Shown here piece by piece: positions 2,114 through 11,385 of a stretch of 64,000 nucleotides of DNA. Position 1 is the first letter of the stretch; every line of letters starts with the position of its first letter. The position numbers were made by a program, and so were the translations under genes. Source of the DNA: Angustibacter luteus (lineage in GTDB: Bacteria; Actinomycetota; Actinomycetes; Actinomycetales; Angustibacteraceae); the NCBI RefSeq assembly GCF_039541115.1, contig NZ_BAABFP010000007.1, positions 522,290 through 586,289 on the forward strand. The letters run 5' to 3'. The notes below the pieces were generated by a model. That model was not told the DNA's origin and did not search any database. It saw only the letters and a list, made by a program, of their open reading frames with translations.

Positions 2114-3433
2114 ATGGCCACCGAAGGCCTGCTCGGTGACGCCGGTCCACAGGTCGAGCCCGACGCCGATCAGGACGAGGACGCCCGACGGCCGTTGAGC
2201 GTGGACGCGGCGCACGCGTACGTGGCCGCCGGAGCCCTGCGGGCGGGCTCACCGGGGCCGGTCGGGCTCGAGCTCGAGGCGCACGTCGTCGACCTGGCTG
2301 AGCCGTCCCGGCGACCGTCCTGGGCTCACCTGCACGCGGCGCTGGACTCGGTGCCGCGCCTGCCGGGCGGCAGCGTGGTCACCCTGGAGCCGGGCGGGCA
2401 GGTGGAGCTGTCGGGCCCGCCCGGGGCGGGCGTCGGCGAGGCGGTCGCGGGGGTGGCCGTGGACCACGCGGCGCTGCGCCGGCACCTGGCCACCCACGGC
2501 TTGGGGCTGGCGCTGGTCGGCGCCGACCCGCTCCGGGAGGCCGCCCGGGTCAACCCGGGCCAGCGGTACGACGCGATGGAGCAGCACTGGCGGGCGACCG
2601 GGCAGGCGTCGGCCGGCCTGTCGATGATGTGCTCGACGGCGTCCCTGCAGGTCAACCTCGAGGCCGGGCCGACCCACGAGTGGGCGCGGCGGACCGAGCT
2701 CGTGCACCTGCTCGGTCCGGTGCTTGTCGCGGTCTCTGCCTGCTCACCGTGGTTGTCCGGCCGGGCCACCGGCTGGCGCTCGACCCGCCAGCGCGTGTGG
2801 GGTGACCTGGACGTGCTCCGGTGCGGGCCGTTGCGCGGCGGCCCAGATCCGGCCGCTGAGTGGGCCGACTACGCGCTCGACGCACCGGTGATGCTGGTCC
2901 GCTCCGGTGACCGGGTGGACCCGGTCCGAACCCGGATCCCGTTGCGCGAGTGGCTGAGCGGCGCCGTCCGGCTGGGCGACCGCCTGCCCGAGCGCAGTGA
3001 CGTCGACCTGCACCTGACGACGCTGTTCCCCCCGGCCCGTCTGCGCGGCTTCATCGAGGTGCGGTACCTGGACGCCGTTCCCCGGCGCTGGTGGGGCGCC
3101 CTCGCCGCCACCCTGGTGACCCTGATGGACGTCCCGCAGGCGGCGGACCTGGCCGCGGCGGCGGCCGAGCCCGTCGGTCGGGAGTGGACGGCGGCCGCCC
3201 GAGACGGGCTCACGCACCCCGGACTGGCTGTGGCCGCCCGGGCCTGCCTGGCAGCGGCGGCCGCGCACGCGCCGGCGGCACTGGCGGACCAGGTGGGCGA
3301 GCTGGCCGACCTCGTCGCCACCGGGCGCTCGCCCGGCGACGACGTCGCCGACACCGCGGCCCGGTTCGGGCCCGAGGCAGCGCTGCTGGCGGCCTGCCCG
3401 CCGGCGTACGAGGGGGAGGACGCCGATGCGTGA
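2114..3433 (+). CDS. egtA: Ergothioneine pathway glutamate-cysteine ligase EgtA
   Basis: EgtA condenses L-glutamate and L-cysteine with ATP to give gamma-glutamylcysteine, the sulfur donor for the EgtB step. The 439-aa protein has a [10 protein letters not shown] stretch near residues 52-61, resembling the metal-binding E-x-E strand of GCS2-type ligases, and NPGQRYDAM and ASLQVNLEA segments typical of the family. The start is ATG 2114 behind GGGGGGAC at 2102-2109. It overlaps egtB by 8 bases, and its place as first of egtABCD separates it from general gamma-glutamylcysteine synthetases. The first 35 residues or so are acidic and poorly conserved. Confidence 0.93.
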
Positions 3434-4742
3434 GCTGGTGGCCCGCGACCTCGAGACGGCCCGACTCCGCACGCTCAGCCTCACCGAGCTGGACGAGCCC
3501 GAGCTCCTGAGGCAGCACGACCCGCTGATGAGTCCGCTGGTCTGGGACCTCGCGCACATCGGCCAGCAGGAGGAGCTCTGGCTGCTCCGCGGCGGCGACG
3601 CCCGGGTCGCGGGCCTGCTGCGACCGGACGTCGACCAGCTGTATGACGCGTTCAAGCACCGTCGTGCCGACCGCCCCCTGCTGCCCTTGCTGCCCCCCGT
3701 GCAGGCGCGCTCCTTCTGCCTCGAGGTGCGCGGCCGGGTGCTCGATGCCCTGGACGCAGCGGACGACGAGCAGCTGTTCACCTTCGGGATGGTCGTCCAG
3801 CACGAGCAGCAGCACGACGAGACCATGCTCGCGACGCTCCAGCTGCGTCAGGGCGCGCCCCTGCTGGGAGCCGGCGACCCGCTGCCGGTGGGCCGCGGCG
3901 CGCGGCTGACCGCGGATGACGGTCGGTCCGGGAACGACGTCCGGTCCCGGGCCGGTGCGGTCGACTCCTGCCTGGTGCCAGCCGGCGAGTTCGTGCTGGG
4001 CGTGGAAGCCGCGGACGAGCCGTTCTCGCTGGACAACGAGCGGCCCGCACACGTCGTCGACGTCCCGGCCTTCCGGATCGCCCGGTTCCCCGTGACGAAC
4101 GGGCAGTGGAAGGCCTTCGTCGCGGACGGCGGCTACGACCAGCCGCGATGGTGGTCCGCGCGCGGGTGGCAGCACCGGGTGCAGTCGGGACTGCACGCGC
4201 CGATGAGCTGGCGCCCCGACGGCAGCAGGGTGCGCTTCGGCGTGGTCGAGGACGTGCCGGACGACGAGCCCGTGCAGCACGTCTCCTGGTTCGAGGCCGA
4301 GGCGTTCGCCGGCTGGGCGGGCGCCCGGCTGCCCACCGAGGTGGAGTGGGAGAAGGCGTGTGCGTGGGACCCGGCGGCCGGACGCCGGCGCCGCTGGCCC
4401 TGGGGGGCCGACGACGTGACGCCGAGCCGAGCCAACCTCGGCGGGTCGGCGCTGCGCCCGGCTCCCGTCGGCGCGTACCCGTCCGGCGCCTCGGCGTACG
4501 GCGTCGAGCAGCTCGTCGGCGACGTGTGGGAGTGGACGTCCTCGCGGTTCGAGCCGTGGCCCGGCTTCGCCCCGATGGTGTACGACACCTACAGCGCGCC
4601 GTTCTTCGGCGGCGACTTCCGGGTGCTCCGCGGTGGCTCCTGGGCGGTGGCGCCGAGCACCGTGCGGCCGTCGTTCCGCAACTGGGACCTGCCGATCCGC
4701 CGGCAGATCTTCACCGGGCTGCGCCTGGCCTGGGACGCCTGA
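3426..4742 (+). CDS. egtB: Hercynine oxygenase EgtB (sulfoxide synthase)
   Basis: EgtB is a non-haem iron enzyme that couples gamma-glutamylcysteine and hercynine with O2 to form the sulfoxide intermediate of ergothioneine. The 438-aa protein has an N-terminal DinB-like domain carrying the probable iron-binding triad H44, H126 and H130 (within [10 protein letters not shown] and QHEQQHDE). The C-terminal formylglycine-generating-enzyme/sulfatase-modifying domain covers about 180-438 and ends in the typical [11 protein letters not shown] segment. It overlaps egtA and is followed without a gap by egtC. All family landmarks are present. Confidence 0.96.
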
Positions 4743-5438
4743 GTGTGCCGGCACCTGGGCTGGCTCGGCCGGCCCCGCACGCTGCACGACCTGGTGCTCG
4801 CGTCGCCGCACGCCCTGCTCGTGCAGTCGTACGCGCCGCGCCGGCAGCGGCACGGCCTGATGAACGCCGACGGCTGGGGCGTGGGCTTCGAGCGGCCGGA
4901 CGGCGAGCCGGCTCGCTGGCGGTCGACCCGGCCCCTGTGGCAGGACGGGTCCTTCGCCTCGGTGGCGCCGGCCATCAGCTCCCCGCTGGTGGTCGCGGCC
5001 GTCCGCTCGGCCACCGCCGGCATGCCGATCGAGGAGTCCGCGACCGCACCGTTCCTGCACGACGGGTGGCTGTGCTCGCACAACGGCCGGGTGGACCGGT
5101 CCGTGCTGCCGCGCCGACCCGACGCCGAGTCGGTCTGCGACGCCGCACTGCTCTGCGCGCACGTCGTGGCCGAGGGGGTGGACCACGTCGCCGACACGGT
5201 GCGTGCGGTCGGCGCCGCGGACCCGGACGCACGCCTCAACCTGCTGCTCGGCCGACCCGGCCGGCTGGTGGCGGTGACCTGGGGCGACACCCTCAGCCGT
5301 ATCACCACCGACGAGGGCACCCTCCTGTCCAGCGAGCCGCTGGACGACGACCCCCGCTGGATCGACGTGCCGGACCGGCACGTCGTCGAGGTGAGCCCGG
5401 ACGGGACCACCGTGACCCCACTGGAGAACCCAGCATGA
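4743..5438 (+). CDS. egtC: Gamma-glutamyl-hercynylcysteine sulfoxide hydrolase EgtC
   Basis: EgtC is a class II glutamine amidotransferase-like hydrolase that removes the gamma-glutamyl group from the EgtB product. Translation from GTG 4743, directly after the egtB stop, gives MCRHLGWLG, which places the catalytic nucleophile Cys at position 2 as the Ntn mechanism requires. This fixes the start. The [18 protein letters not shown] and LSSEPLDDD segments are hallmarks of the fold. At 231 aa it matches mycobacterial EgtC. It overlaps egtD by four bases (ATGA). Confidence 0.95.
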
Positions 5439-6403
5439 CGATCACGCTGACCAGCCACCTCGCCGGGACGGACCGCGCCCAGGCCCTGGCGGACGACGTC
5501 CGCGCCGGGTTGTCGGCGACCCCGAAGTCGTTGCCGCCCAAGTGGTTCTACGACGAGCGCGGCAGCCAGCTGTTCGACGAGATCACCCGGCTGCCCGAGT
5601 ACTACCCGACGAACGCCGAGCGTGCGGTGCTGCAGGAGCGGGCCGACGAGATCGTCCGGCTGTCCGGGGCGGACACGCTGGTCGAGATCGGCAGCGGAAC
5701 GTCCGAGAAGACCCGTCTGCTGCTGGACGCGTTCGCGGCGTCCGGCCGGCTGCGCCGGTTCGTGCCCTTCGACGTCGACCCCGTGGTGCTCCGGCAGGCG
5801 GGCGCCGCCGTGGCGGACGAGTACCCCGGCACCGAGGTGCTGGCGGTGGCGGGCGACTTCGAGCGGCACCTGGACCGGCTGCCGGTGACCGGCCGGCGGC
5901 TGGTGGCGTTCCTCGGGTCCACCATCGGCAACTTGGAGCCAGCCCCCCGCGCCCGGTTCCTGGCCACGATCGGGGCCGGCCTGCGCCGCGGCGACGCCTT
6001 CCTGCTCGGCACCGACCTGGTCAAGGACGCCGATCGCCTGGTGGCCGCCTACGACGACGACAGCGGGGTGACGGCCGCCTTCAACAAGAACGTGCTGGCC
6101 GTGGTGAACACCGAGCTGGACGCCGACTTCGACCTTGACGCCTTCGAGCACGTCGCGCGCTGGGACGAGCACGAGGAGTGGATCGAGATGCACCTGCGCT
6201 CCACCCGCCGGCAGACCGTCACCGTCGGTGCGCTCGACCTGCGCGTCGACTTCGCGGCTGGCGAGCTGATGCGCACCGAGGTCTCGGCCAAGTTCCGCGA
6301 GTCCGGCGTCCGCCGCGAGCTCGCCGCGGCCGGGCTGGCCCCCCTGGTGTGGTGGACGGACCCGCGGGGCGACTTCGGGGTCAGCCTCAGCACGCCTCGC
6401 TGA
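5435..6403 (+). CDS. egtD: L-histidine N(alpha)-methyltransferase EgtD
   Basis: EgtD trimethylates L-histidine to hercynine with three S-adenosylmethionine molecules, which commits histidine to ergothioneine synthesis. The ATG at 5435 lies inside the egtC stop and gives 322 aa, the family length. Visible landmarks are [15 protein letters not shown] and PEYYPTNAE (about 37-62), which form the histidine-binding region, then motif [16 protein letters not shown] (about 83-97), FLGSTIGN and a KFRES segment near the end. It is the last gene of egtABCD. An 83-base gap separates it from the convergent GerMN gene. Confidence 0.96.
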
Positions 6404-6486: not shown

Positions 6487-7707
6487 TCAGCGGACCGTGA
6501 ACGCCACGGTGTCCTGGACCGGGTCTCCCGAACCGGAAGCCGGTAGCGCGTAGGCCCGGAACGTGTACTGGCCCGCGGGCACGTCCACCAACCGCACCGA
6601 CCAGGCGCCGGTGTCCGGGCAGCCGCTGCTGGCCGTGAGGTGCCCGGACCGGACGACCTCTGCGCCGGACAGCAGCTCCCAGGACAGCGCCGCCTCGAAG
6701 ACGCACGCCCGACCGCTGACGGTCAGCGGCGCGGTCAGCGAAGCCTGTGGCCGCGGACTGTCGATCGCGACCATGCTTTCCGACTGCTGGCCGCTGGATT
6801 GGCCGGACGGCGCTTGGCCGGACGGCGCTTGGCCGGACGGCGCCTGGGATGACGGCGCCTGGGATGCCGGTGCGGTGGTCGGTCCGACGGCCGGGTCGCG
6901 GAACATGGCGTCGCCGACCGGCGTCGAGCCGAACAGCAGCCCCGGGCTGCCGCCGATCAGGATCCTCACTCCCATGGACGCGTCCTGCTGCACGGCGGTC
7001 GCCGTCCAGACCAGCTGCTGGGCGGCGAGGCGGGCCTGCGCCGCGCTCCGGCCGTGCGCCGCGCCCTCGGTGGCCGGGAGGTCGATGGTCAGCAGTCCGT
7101 CAGCGGGACCTTCGAGACGCAACGGCCCCGTGCGCGGTTGCCACGGCGCGCCGTGCGCCGCCTCCTGCACCGCCGTGGGGTCGGTGGCGTCGTCCAGGGC
7201 CTGCTGCATCCGTTGGCGCGGGCTGGCGAGCGTGCGCCGGTGCCACTCGCGGGCCAGCCGCAGCCCGTCGCCGTCCTGCTGCACGTAGTAGACCGGCAGC
7301 GCGTACGCCACGGCGTTGCCACCGCCGCTCGAGGCCGTGCTCGGGGCACTGGAGGACGTCGTCCGCGGGCCGGTCACCGGTGGGCTGGCGACGGTCGGCG
7401 CGGTGCCGACGTCCGTGCTGTGCCCGGTCGGCGGGGAGAGCGCGGTGCCCGACCCGTTCAGCGCCAACGCCCCGCCGCCGGCCACTGCGACCAGCGCGGT
7501 GCAGGCGGCCGCGGCGACGAGCCAGGGCCGTCGCTCGCGCCGGGCGGTCGTCGCCGCCCGGAGCTCGGCGATCCGGTCGCCGGGCTGCAACGCCGACGCG
7601 TCGTGCTCCAGGGTGTCGACCACCGCCGCCACGGCCGCGTCGTCCGCGGGCTCGGGCAGGTCGCCCAGCCACTGCGGCGGGGTGGCGCCGGTGCCGTCGT
7701 CGCTCAT
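6487..7707 (-). CDS. Membrane-anchored GerMN / Gmad2 domain protein
   Basis: A 406-aa protein with a cytoplasmic N-terminus (1-60), one transmembrane helix (about 62-84), a Ser/Thr/Pro-rich linker, a GerMN domain (about 130-260) and a C-terminal Gmad2 immunoglobulin-like domain (about 308-406). GerMN and Gmad2 domains are known from Bacillus spore-germination and sporulation proteins and are common in actinobacterial envelope proteins of unknown role. Between the two domains is a repeat made of SGQAP units, encoded by 15-bp DNA repeats. Its ATG overlaps the stop of the upstream sigma-factor gene, so the two are co-transcribed. The cytoplasmic tail plus helix resembles anti-sigma factor architecture, so it may sense the envelope for that sigma factor; this is inference. 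No zinc-binding anti-sigma (ZAS) motif is visible. Confidence 0.8.
   Translation of the reverse strand: MSDDGTGATPPQWLGDLPEPADDAAVAAVVDTLEHDASALQPGDRIAELRAATTARRERRPWLVAAAACTALVAVAGGGALALNGSGTALSPPTGHSTDVGTAPTVASPPVTGPRTTSSSAPSTASSGGGNAVAYALPVYYVQQDGDGLRLAREWHRRTLASPRQRMQQALDDATDPTAVQEAAHGAPWQPRTGPLRLEGPADGLLTIDLPATEGAAHGRSAAQARLAAQQLVWTATAVQQDASMGVRILIGGSPGLLFGSTPVGDAMFRDPAVGPTTAPASQAPSSQAPSGQAPSGQAPSGQSSGQQSESMVAIDSPRPQASLTAPLTVSGRACVFEAALSWELLSGAEVVRSGHLTASSGCPDTGAWSVRLVDVPAGQYTFRAYALPASGSGDPVQDTVAFTVR
6801..6860. repeat. In-frame 15-bp tandem repeat (SGQAP linker)
   Basis: About four copies of a 15-base unit, GGCCGGACGGCGCTT on the plus strand, at 6801, 6816, 6831 and, diverged, 6846. 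The first two copies are identical. Read on the minus strand they encode Ser-Gly-Gln-Ala-Pro repeats in the linker between the GerMN and Gmad2 domains. The unit length is a multiple of three, so copy-number changes alter linker length without a frameshift. Confidence 0.85.
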
Positions 7708-8303
7708 CGGGCGCCCGTCCCCTCGTCGAGCCCGGCCAGACTGACCCGCACCGCGGCGATCGCGCGGTGGGCGTGGCTCTTCACCGCGCCGCGGGTGATC
7801 TGCAGGGTCTGGGCGATCTCGGACTCAGACAGGCCCAGGTGGTAGCGCAGCACGAGCACCTCGCGCTGGCGGGTAGGCAGCTTGGCCAGGGCGTCGTTCA
7901 CGGCCTGGCGCCGCGCGCCGGCCAGCACGACGTCCTCGGCGCTGGGGCCGGCCCGCTCCGCGAGCGAACGCGGCTCGCCGGCGGTGGGGCCGCCCGCGGC
8001 GGCCCAGCGCTGACGCACGCTGCGTCGGCGCAGCGTGCTGCGCGAACCGTTGACCACGGCGACCCGCAGGTAGGCGAGGGCCTGGTCGTGGTCGGCCATC
8101 CGTCGCCAGCGACGGTGCACGGCGATGAAGGCGTCCTGGACGACCTCCTCGGCCAGCGGCAGGTCGCGGACGAGCAGGTACGACAAGCGCACCAGGGCGC
8201 GCCAGTGCGCGCGGTAGAGCTCGGTGAGGGCCTCGTCGGCGGTCCAGCGGGCGCTCTCGTCGGGCAACGCGGCGGTGGACGCGGCGACCTGGTCCGAGGC
8301 CAT
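7704..8303 (-). CDS. SigE-family RNA polymerase sigma factor (ECF-like)
   Basis: A 199-aa sigma-70-like protein with region 2 (about 28-95, including LVRDLPLAEEVVQDAFIAVHRRW) and region 4 (about 135-185, including LPTRQREVLVLRYHLGLSESEIA and a helix-turn-helix). It resembles the actinobacterial SigE/SigM subfamily. I prefer ATG 8303 because GGGAGGTG lies 6 bases upstream on the minus strand. A longer start at ATG 8342 adds 13 residues and lacks such a site. The stop overlaps the ATG of the GerMN membrane protein, which is therefore its likely regulator or output. The 5' flank is shared with the divergent HIT gene. Confidence 0.9.
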   Translation of the reverse strand: MASDQVAASTAALPDESARWTADEALTELYRAHWRALVRLSYLLVRDLPLAEEVVQDAFIAVHRRWRRMADHDQALAYLRVAVVNGSRSTLRRRSVRQRWAAAGGPTAGEPRSLAERAGPSAEDVVLAGARRQAVNDALAKLPTRQREVLVLRYHLGLSESEIAQTLQITRGAVKSHAHRAIAAVRVSLAGLDEGTGAR

Positions 8304-8372
8304 CGCCGTCACCTCCCGTCGCGGGCTGAGCAGCGCCTCCATGGTGGTCCCACGCGCGGGCGACCGGAAAGG

Positions 8373-8400
8373 TTGTCATCGAACGACGCGCCGGTAATCT
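8373..8400 (+). promoter_or_regulatory. Probable promoter of the HIT gene (leaderless)
   Basis: TTGTCA at 8373-8378 and TAATCT at 8395-8400 are separated by 16 bases. This is a good match to the housekeeping -35/-10 consensus, in an otherwise GC-rich region. Transcription would start about 7 bases after the -10, at 8407, which is the GTG start of the HIT gene. No Shine-Dalgarno sequence is present, so the mRNA is predicted to be leaderless, a frequent arrangement in actinobacteria. Confidence 0.6.
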
Positions 8401-8406
8401 CGCCGG

Positions 8407-8769
8407 GTGAGCACCGACCAGCGTCCACATGACCCGCAGTGCCCGTTCTGTCGCATCGTCGCGGGTGAGATCCCGGCCGACGTGGTGGCGCAGGACGACC
8501 AGGCCATCGCCTTCCGCGACCTGGATCCCCAGGCCCCTCTGCACGTTCTGGTGGTGCCGCGAGCGCACTACCCGGACGTCGCCACGCTGGCCGTGGGCGA
8601 CCCGGAGGCCCTCGTCGCCGTGGCCCGGCTGGCGGCCACGGTCGCCGCGGACGAGAACGGCGGCCAGTTCCGCCTCGTCTTCAACAGCGGCGCCCAGGCG
8701 CAGCAGAGCGTCTTCCACGTGCACGGGCACGTGCTCGGCGGGCGTGACCTGACCTGGCCGCCCGGCTGA
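8407..8769 (+). CDS. HIT family protein (histidine triad nucleotide-binding, HINT-like)
   Basis: A 120-aa HIT-domain hydrolase of the HINT branch, which usually cleaves adenosine phosphoramidates or adenylated amino acids. Residues 12-15 (CPFC) and H44-equivalent positions form the usual HINT zinc/core region, and the catalytic histidine triad is in FHVHGHVLGG (H104, H106, H108). It starts with GTG 8407 directly at the predicted transcription start. The stop overlaps the start of a serine hydrolase gene (TGATG). In actinobacteria this HIT gene normally lies close to phoH, and here the hydrolase sits between them. Confidence 0.93.
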   Translation: MSTDQRPHDPQCPFCRIVAGEIPADVVAQDDQAIAFRDLDPQAPLHVLVVPRAHYPDVATLAVGDPEALVAVARLAATVAADENGGQFRLVFNSGAQAQQSVFHVHGHVLGGRDLTWPPG

Positions 8770-10187: not shown

Positions 10188-10305
10188 GCGGGGAGCGGCT
10201 GGCCCGTCCTGCGGCGAAATGGACGGGTGGCCTGTCGGTCCGCGCGGCTACGATGGTCGGGTCTTGGCGTCACCACGAAGGGATCGACAGGCCACCAGGC
10301 TGCCC

Positions 10306-11385
10306 ATGAGCGACACACCGACTGATACCTCGAGCGAGACCCCCAGCGATACCCCCGGCCCTGACCCGAGCCCTGGCGCCCAGGTGCCGCACACCATCGT
10401 GGTCGCCGCCGAGGTCCCCATGGTCTCCCTGCTCGGCCCCGGCGACGAGCTGCTGCGCACCATCGAGCGCGCGTTCCCGCGGCTCGACGTGCACGTGCGC
10501 GGCAACGAGATCACGCTGAACGGCCCCCCGGCCGAGGTGGCCCTGCTCGAGCGGCTGGTCGACGAGCTGCTCGTGGTGATCGCCTCCGGTCAGCCGCTGA
10601 CCCGCGACGCGGTCGACCGGTCCGTCGCGATGCTGCGCCAGCAGACGACGGAGCGCCCCGCCGACGTCCTGACCATGAACATCCTGTCCAACCGCGGTAA
10701 GAAGATCCGCCCGAAGACGTTGAACCAGAAGCGGTACGTCGACGCGATCGACGACAACACGGTGGTGTTCGGGATCGGCCCGGCCGGCACCGGCAAGACG
10801 TACCTGGCGATGGCCAAGGCCGTGCAGGCGCTGCAGGCCAAGCGGGTCAACCGGATCATCCTGACCCGTCCGGCCGTCGAGGCGGGTGAGCGCCTGGGCT
10901 TCCTGCCGGGCACGCTGACGGAGAAGATCGATCCGTACCTGCGCCCGCTGTACGACGCGCTGCACGACATGCTCGACCCGGACTCGATCCCGCGGCTGAT
11001 GGCGGCCGGCACGATCGAGGTCGCGCCGCTGGCGTACATGCGCGGCCGCTCGCTGAACGACGCGTTCATCATCCTCGACGAGGCGCAGAACACCTCGGCC
11101 GAGCAGATGAAGATGTTCCTCACCCGGCTCGGGTTCGGCTCGAAGATCGTGGTCACCGGCGACGTCACGCAGGTCGACCTGCCGGCCGGGACGACGTCCG
11201 GGCTGCGCATCGTGCAGGACATCCTGGACGACCTCGACGACGTGCACTTCGCGCTCCTGACCAGCCAGGACGTCGTCCGGCACCCCCTGGTGGGGCAGAT
11301 CGTCGACGCGTACGGGCGCTGGGACGCGCTGCGCACCGGTGCGCCGCTCGCCGGCAACCGGGCCGCCCGTCGCGGCCGGCGATGA
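10306..11385 (+). CDS. PhoH family ATPase (PhoH-like / YbeZ)
   Basis: A P-loop ATPase of the YbeZ branch, which works with the endoribonuclease YbeY in rRNA maturation and quality control. Residues 1-25 or so are a Thr/Ser/Pro-rich tail, then a KH-like region (PMVSLLG...HVRGNEIT), Walker A GPAGTGKT, Walker [10 protein letters not shown] and a [11 protein letters not shown] sensor. From ATG 10306 it is 359 aa. An in-frame TTG at 10264 is an alternative, since a TACGAT -10-like hexamer at 10249-10254 would place the transcript start about there. The next gene is ybeY, 4 bases downstream. Confidence 0.93.

Follow-up and report, generated by a model that had tools for sequence, protein, structure and literature searches.

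A SigE-like sigma factor and its GerMN/Gmad2 membrane partner in Angustibacter luteus: a probable sigma/anti-sigma pair

In the window, the whole stretch of 64,000 nucleotides of Angustibacter luteus DNA that was analysed, a gene for an ECF sigma factor overlaps the gene for a single-pass membrane protein. Judged from comparative sequence analysis, the two probably form a sigma/anti-sigma pair (rough probability 0.7), in which the inner tail of the membrane protein would hold the sigma factor, an outer signal would release it, and the freed sigma factor would transcribe its own operon. The promoter-like element upstream of 56 of 59 orthologous sigma genes, the conserved tail that is tied to the sigma gene, and the persistence of this tail after the outer domains have gone argue together for such a unit. 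Among the relatives examined, the tail was found only with a sigma gene next door, which makes the pair a probable sensor of envelope stress. The comparison itself shows that the genes overlap, that they stay paired, that a promoter-like element with fixed spacing precedes the sigma gene, that the inner tail goes with the sigma gene and that the outer part can vary or be absent; we infer that the partner binds and inhibits the sigma factor, that an envelope signal leads to its release, and that this sigma factor autoregulates its operon.

The gene pair, its domains and its neighbourhood

Both genes lie on the minus strand. The sigma gene (7704..8303) encodes a SigE-like ECF sigma factor of 199 residues; its start ATG at 8303 is preceded by GGAGGTGA, and an alternative in-frame ATG at 8342 would yield a protein of 212 residues. 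The partner gene (6487..7707) encodes 406 residues, comprising the inner tail, one membrane helix, a GerMN domain, a repeat linker and a Gmad2 domain. The sigma stop and the partner start share an ATGA (7704..7707, minus strand), the same offset as in 44 of 59 pairs, and the genes, coordinates, strand and overlap given by the first-pass annotation were confirmed. That annotation also placed the sigma factor in the SigE family. In Pfam, sigma-70 regions 2 and 4 are above their cut-offs and region 3 is not listed, and TIGR02983 (SigE family) has the best E-value among 128 families; however, its 139.4 bits narrowly miss the curated cut-off of 141.55.

The proposed sigma-binding domain is the inner tail, residues 1-60 (7528..7707, minus strand), a proposal based on its motif, the AlphaFold model and the adjacency count; these residues contain one His and no Cys. 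The tail is followed on the same strand by the membrane helix, residues ~62-83 (7459..7524), read from the sequence in a region where the model is uncertain. The outside part was correctly recognized at the outset as GerMN plus Gmad2, both above their Pfam cut-offs: the GerMN domain (Germane, PF10646; residues 138-255; 6943..7296, minus strand) with E 2.6e-8 and 34.9 bits against 23, together with a PDB profile match and the fold, and the Ig-like Gmad2 domain (PF10648; residues 313-391; 6535..6771, minus strand) with E 7.7e-14 and 52.2 bits against 25.7. The AlphaFold model of the whole partner has a mean pLDDT of 76 and a pTM of 0.50. GerMN and Gmad2 are modelled with confidence, and residues 278-310 form a low-confidence linker. 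Inside, helices are predicted at residues 24-39 (block mean pLDDT 80-83) and 46-58 (68), and a further helix at 61-72 runs into the membrane segment, with low confidence from residue 63 on.

A 15-bp tandem repeat of 4.3 copies (6799..6862, minus strand) encodes the QAPSG-type linker between GerMN and Gmad2; that a 15-bp repeat encodes the linker had been noted from the beginning. The repeat is in frame, and its copies match at 91%. Among 12 proteins compared, taken from a 35-row alignment, only the window protein carries the repeat, and the other 11, including the one from the same genus, have 16-17 residues at the linker and no repeat. A role for the repeat as a functional element was considered and dropped, since it is absent from these 11 proteins.

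A HIT-family gene (8407..8769, plus strand) is divergent from the sigma gene and is its conserved neighbour, with a PhoH gene beyond it (10219-11385). The ergothioneine genes egtB, egtC and egtD stand in a row (3426-6403, plus strand), each above its own NCBIfam cut-off; they are convergent with the sigma operon, the end of which faces them. A defence role was also considered and set aside, as PADLOC gave no match.

In searches with Gmad2, matches were obtained in 19 of 59 genomes (own genome included) and, across the class, in 68 of 295. From the first search all 20 regions apart from the own one were taken, and from the second 60, fewer than matched; a sigma match was present in 44 loci of these regions, with HIT also present in 42 of the 44. 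Counting paralogues, a search with the sigma factor matched 82 of 148 genomes at E 1e-25 or better. In total, 59 distinct sigma-partner pairs were gathered through the Gmad2 searches, the sigma searches and the promoter motif (four cases) after removal of near-identical copies, and they recur across Actinomycetes, mostly near HIT-PhoH. Conservation of the pair across actinobacteria, proposed earlier as a check, is thus strong. The members that carry a name are from Jiangella and Phytoactinopolyspora, and among these, four loci (L288, L292, L294 and L297) are classed as sigma-linked. Sigma stop and partner start have a 4-base overlap in 44 of the 59 pairs, a count that leans to this offset because the choice of start favours -4 wherever a start codon stands there; in 14 pairs the partner start lies 9-28 bases after the stop, and in locus L031 at -8.

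An inner tail that follows the sigma gene

The aligned N-termini, from 47 of 61 distinct partners (near-copies, L031 and L080 were left out), have in common the motif LRxALxxEAxxVxPxxDGLxxIRxR. The distribution of this tail was counted in 153 unique GerMN/Gmad2 proteins from the collected loci, near-identical copies having been removed. Directly behind a sigma gene, the tail is present in 49 of 50 proteins and a lipobox in none; away from a sigma gene, the tail is present in 0 of 100 and a lipobox in 80 of 100, although some of these 100 are close to the end of a contig, so that a neighbouring sigma gene may have been missed. The remaining 3 are second tandem copies with a lipobox and no tail. 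The adjacent protein that falls under the tail cut-off is that of L031, in which the tail is visible by eye. Because sigma-linked proteins served to build the tail profile, its matches among them arise partly by construction and the contrast leans on the absence of the tail elsewhere. Additionally, ten proteins beside HIT but without a sigma gene have the tail in 0 of 10 and a lipobox in 6 of 10.

In trees of the outer domains, sigma-linked and free proteins are interleaved, and well-supported branches force at least six or at least seven changes of state (101 rows). Across the seven independent adjacency changes of the 101-row tree, the tail changed in the same direction in 6 and in the opposite direction in none (p 0.031); L031 is presumably the remaining one. 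With the lipobox in place of the tail, 4.1 of 7 changes agreed in direction and 0 were opposite, which is not significant (median p 0.125). Open frames shorter than 200 residues were left out of the trees, as were all but 12 random sigma-free proteins of loci L310 and above, which are mostly from Arthrobacter; the 101-row tree was also built without L037 (cut by a contig end) and without L039, L042, L043, L123 and L128 (long branches or a different architecture). Over 41 pairs, with L031, L128 and the pairs lacking HIT excluded, distances of the sigma factor correlate with those of the tail at r 0.79, of the outer domain at r 0.81 and of HIT at r 0.44. Because the outer domain correlates as well as the tail, this indicates co-inheritance rather than contact.

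In the own genome, the tail profile gave five matches at E <1e-3, one of which is the window's own; four of the five extend into the helix region and lie behind a sigma gene, and the fifth covers positions 43-88 only and has no sigma gene beside it. At E up to 0.5 there are 19 matches, with a sigma gene in the locus in 8 (one on the other strand) and none in 11. Three more, distantly related sigma genes of this genome (L269, L270 and L271) are followed by proteins that by eye have a membrane helix and a short inner tail resembling that of the window protein, and these are possible further pairs built in the same way.

The outer part can vary. In family f32, eleven partners of orthologous sigma factors keep the tail and the membrane helix and are Pro/Ser-rich outside; no GerMN or Gmad2 was found in the first 170 residues of these eleven, and Pfam gave no match for the partner of L226. 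Gmad2 matched in a single f32 genome, G151, weakly and on another contig. The partners of L095 and L105 have Gmad2 and no Germane match in Pfam. In seven tandem loci (L031, L074, L077, L078, L079, L081 and L085), the sigma gene is followed by the tail-bearing GerMN/Gmad2 protein and then by a second GerMN/Gmad2 protein, which carries a lipobox in L074, L078, L079, L081 and L085 and a membrane helix instead in L031. Since the tail goes with the sigma factor while the outer part may vary or be missing, a sigma/anti-sigma unit is the reading to which this distribution points. The first-pass suggestion of an envelope-sensing unit gains support from the co-conservation and from the sigma-tied inner motif.

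Behind more distant SigE-like sigma genes of families f33 and f34 there is also a protein that, by eye, has a comparable short tail and a membrane helix. The partners of L261 and L262 (f33) seem to carry DxDGDG-type repeats in the outer part on such a tail. L258 and L259 (f34), which we take by guess to be Streptomyces, have a conserved sigma-partner pair in which the tail resembles LRRLLHxxVxxIEPxDGxLDHLRRAV and an ACAACC element stands upstream.

Promoter element, proposed mechanism and alternatives

The element GACAACC-N16-CGTG lies upstream of the sigma gene (8351..8377, minus strand) and is proposed as its autoregulated promoter. A promoter of its own with an AAC-type -35 and a CGT-type -10 at fixed spacing is a mark of an autoregulated ECF unit, and this mark is found in the family of the window pair, in which [AC]AACC-N16-CGT stands upstream of 56 of the 59 distinct sigma orthologues. 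At spacings of 12-20 other than 16, at most 10 sigma genes show [AC]AACC and CGT, and 300 shuffles gave a mean of 0.47 matches and a maximum of 4. Three sigma genes are without the motif; two of these have one mismatch by eye, and the third has the motif intact beyond the edge of the extract. Because the element precedes so many of the sigma genes, it is likely that the sigma factor transcribes its own operon.

The pattern was chosen by eye on these same upstream sequences and then counted; therefore, a search that starts from the motif is a better, prospective check. Of the 30 loci fetched for the strict motif, which are part of a longer list of matches, 5 hold a sigma orthologue, one already known and four new (L196-L198 and L215). 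In these four, the contig differs from that of the genome's Gmad2 gene, and the partner keeps the inner tail and membrane helix; the two partners tested (L197 and L215) gave no Pfam match.

In the own genome, GNMAACC-N16-CGTS matches at 98 sites, versus 22 for the pattern read backwards. Ten of the 98 were inspected and all lie inside open frames of at least 150 residues, a location that says little because the genome is so GC-rich. The strict GTAAACC-N16-CGTC has a single match in G172, G208, G225, G241, G112 and G122, in every case at the locus of the sigma and Gmad2 genes; the other genomes of the same family that have it contain two to four matches. Among the matches listed for 10 genomes of one genus, several GTCAACC sites are common to genomes and look coding-like. 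In the own genome, the genomes of that family and this one-genus comparison, no regulon member was found beyond the own operon.

According to the proposed mechanism, the two short helices of the inner 60 residues would hold the sigma factor at the membrane. The GerMN-Gmad2 outer part would meet an envelope signal, with a change of shape or proteolysis, and the released sigma factor would then transcribe its own operon from GACAACC-N16-CGTG.

Three other explanations have to be weighed. The tail may bind the sigma factor and yet help it, the partner acting as a membrane anchor or co-factor on which the activity of the sigma factor depends. The comparative evidence favours a functional link and is silent on the sign of regulation, and a passage of PMC8999054 describes ECF sigma factors that have no anti-sigma factor and are under other controls. 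However, PMC8103513 names membrane-anchored anti-sigma factors as the commonest mode of control, accounting for 74% of the ECFs whose mechanism is known, and states that their genes are usually neighbours of the sigma gene; the helper role is considered unlikely. Less likely still is that the partner is a mere target, an envelope protein co-transcribed with the sigma factor and never in contact with it. The own operon is indeed the sole strict-motif site in several genomes, and the second gene of the seven tandem loci, mostly with a lipobox, would suit such a target; but this explanation leaves unexplained both why the tail, in this domain family, is restricted to sigma neighbours and why it stays once the outer domains are gone. 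Finally, that two functionally unrelated genes are held together by a conserved neighbourhood is very improbable, for although HIT accompanies nearly all sigma loci, the pair persists in L104 and L128, where neither HIT nor PhoH matched in the fetched stretch, the four motif-found pairs lie on other contigs than their genomes' Gmad2 genes, and the tail is absent at the ten HIT-adjoining places without a sigma gene.

The sigma/anti-sigma reading can be extended, more tentatively, to a two-helix anti-sigma domain that is uncatalogued and widespread in Actinomycetes with SigE-like sigma factors, carries swappable sensors and works in a self-levelling loop whose regulon is about its own operon; this wider form is possible but doubtful. 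In the tandem operons the GerMN-Gmad2 sensor would be a paralogue of the lipoprotein encoded as the next gene; therefore, the cell may compare a membrane-tied copy with the free product. If true, a short tail motif would assign a regulator to many SigE-like sigma factors of Actinomycetes, and GerMN and Gmad2, named from spore germination, would gain a role in sensing. The promoter element is a ready reporter.

Comparison with known anti-sigma systems

The first-pass annotation described an inside part of 60 residues with no standard anti-sigma motif, and this was borne out to the extent that no catalogued one was found, while the tail has a conserved motif of its own. For the 47 N-termini, the best 25 of the 31 Pfam families that matched at E ≤1 include no anti-sigma family, and the other six would, going by the sort order, be single-member matches at E 0.21 or worse. 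A PDB sequence search with the tail gave 12 matches at E ≤10, and no known anti-sigma structure is among these. CwsA was rejected as a relative of the window tail, the match being weak and covering residues 49-83, mostly the membrane helix.

Class I anti-sigma factors (RseA, RsiW and RskA type) resemble the window partner in having the gene behind an ECF sigma gene, a single membrane helix, an inner N-terminus and an outer sensor. In contrast to them, the inner part of the window partner is limited to 60 residues, in which two helices are predicted, and the Zn motif Hx3Cx2C (class I ASDI/ZAS) is absent, there being no Cys in residues 1-60. Class I anti-sigma domains free of Zn exist and share little sequence, so the missing motif is not final. 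When the L104 sigma factor and tail were modelled by AlphaFold as one chain (pTM 0.53), the sigma blocks reached pLDDT 77-98 and the tail helices only ~50-65; the model therefore supports no docking of the tail on the sigma factor. Fold matches of this model were to ECF sigma factors in general only.

On the outer side, LpqB is another GerMN protein. The GerMN domain is shared with B. subtilis GerM and other GerMN proteins, and PDB 6gzb gave a profile match at E 2e-8 and is among the best folds; however, GerMN is in tandem there, whereas in the window protein it is combined with Gmad2 and a sigma-linked tail.

For class II, of the CnrY type, the mark is two short helices that wrap sigma2 and sigma4. 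CnrY has two helices according to a passage of PMC7406223, as is predicted for the window tail, and is a candidate that may work alike, but the window tail has no sequence match to the CnrY chain and the model has no confident docking. Class III RsbN, of BldN, is like the window partner actinobacterial with a short inner helical domain according to the same passage, which swaps the names RsbN and BldN. Three helices are present in that complex, whereas two are predicted here at moderate confidence, and no sequence match was found.

In the titles and abstracts covered, no GerMN/Gmad2-sigma pair is described; the 2021 ECF classification and the 2015 actinobacterial survey fell outside that scope. 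A pair likened by description, not by sequence, is RS00060/RS00065 of S. venezuelae, an ECF sigma factor with a co-transcribed, uncatalogued single-pass partner, which at 102 aa is much shorter than the window partner (PMC11256431). In the part of that paper concerned, the partner is thought to be 'a membrane-embedded ASF of an unknown family', and the idea of unrecognised ECF partners is therefore already in print. The window pair probably works like a membrane anti-sigma system; the class I marks tested (Zn motif and Pfam) are lacking.
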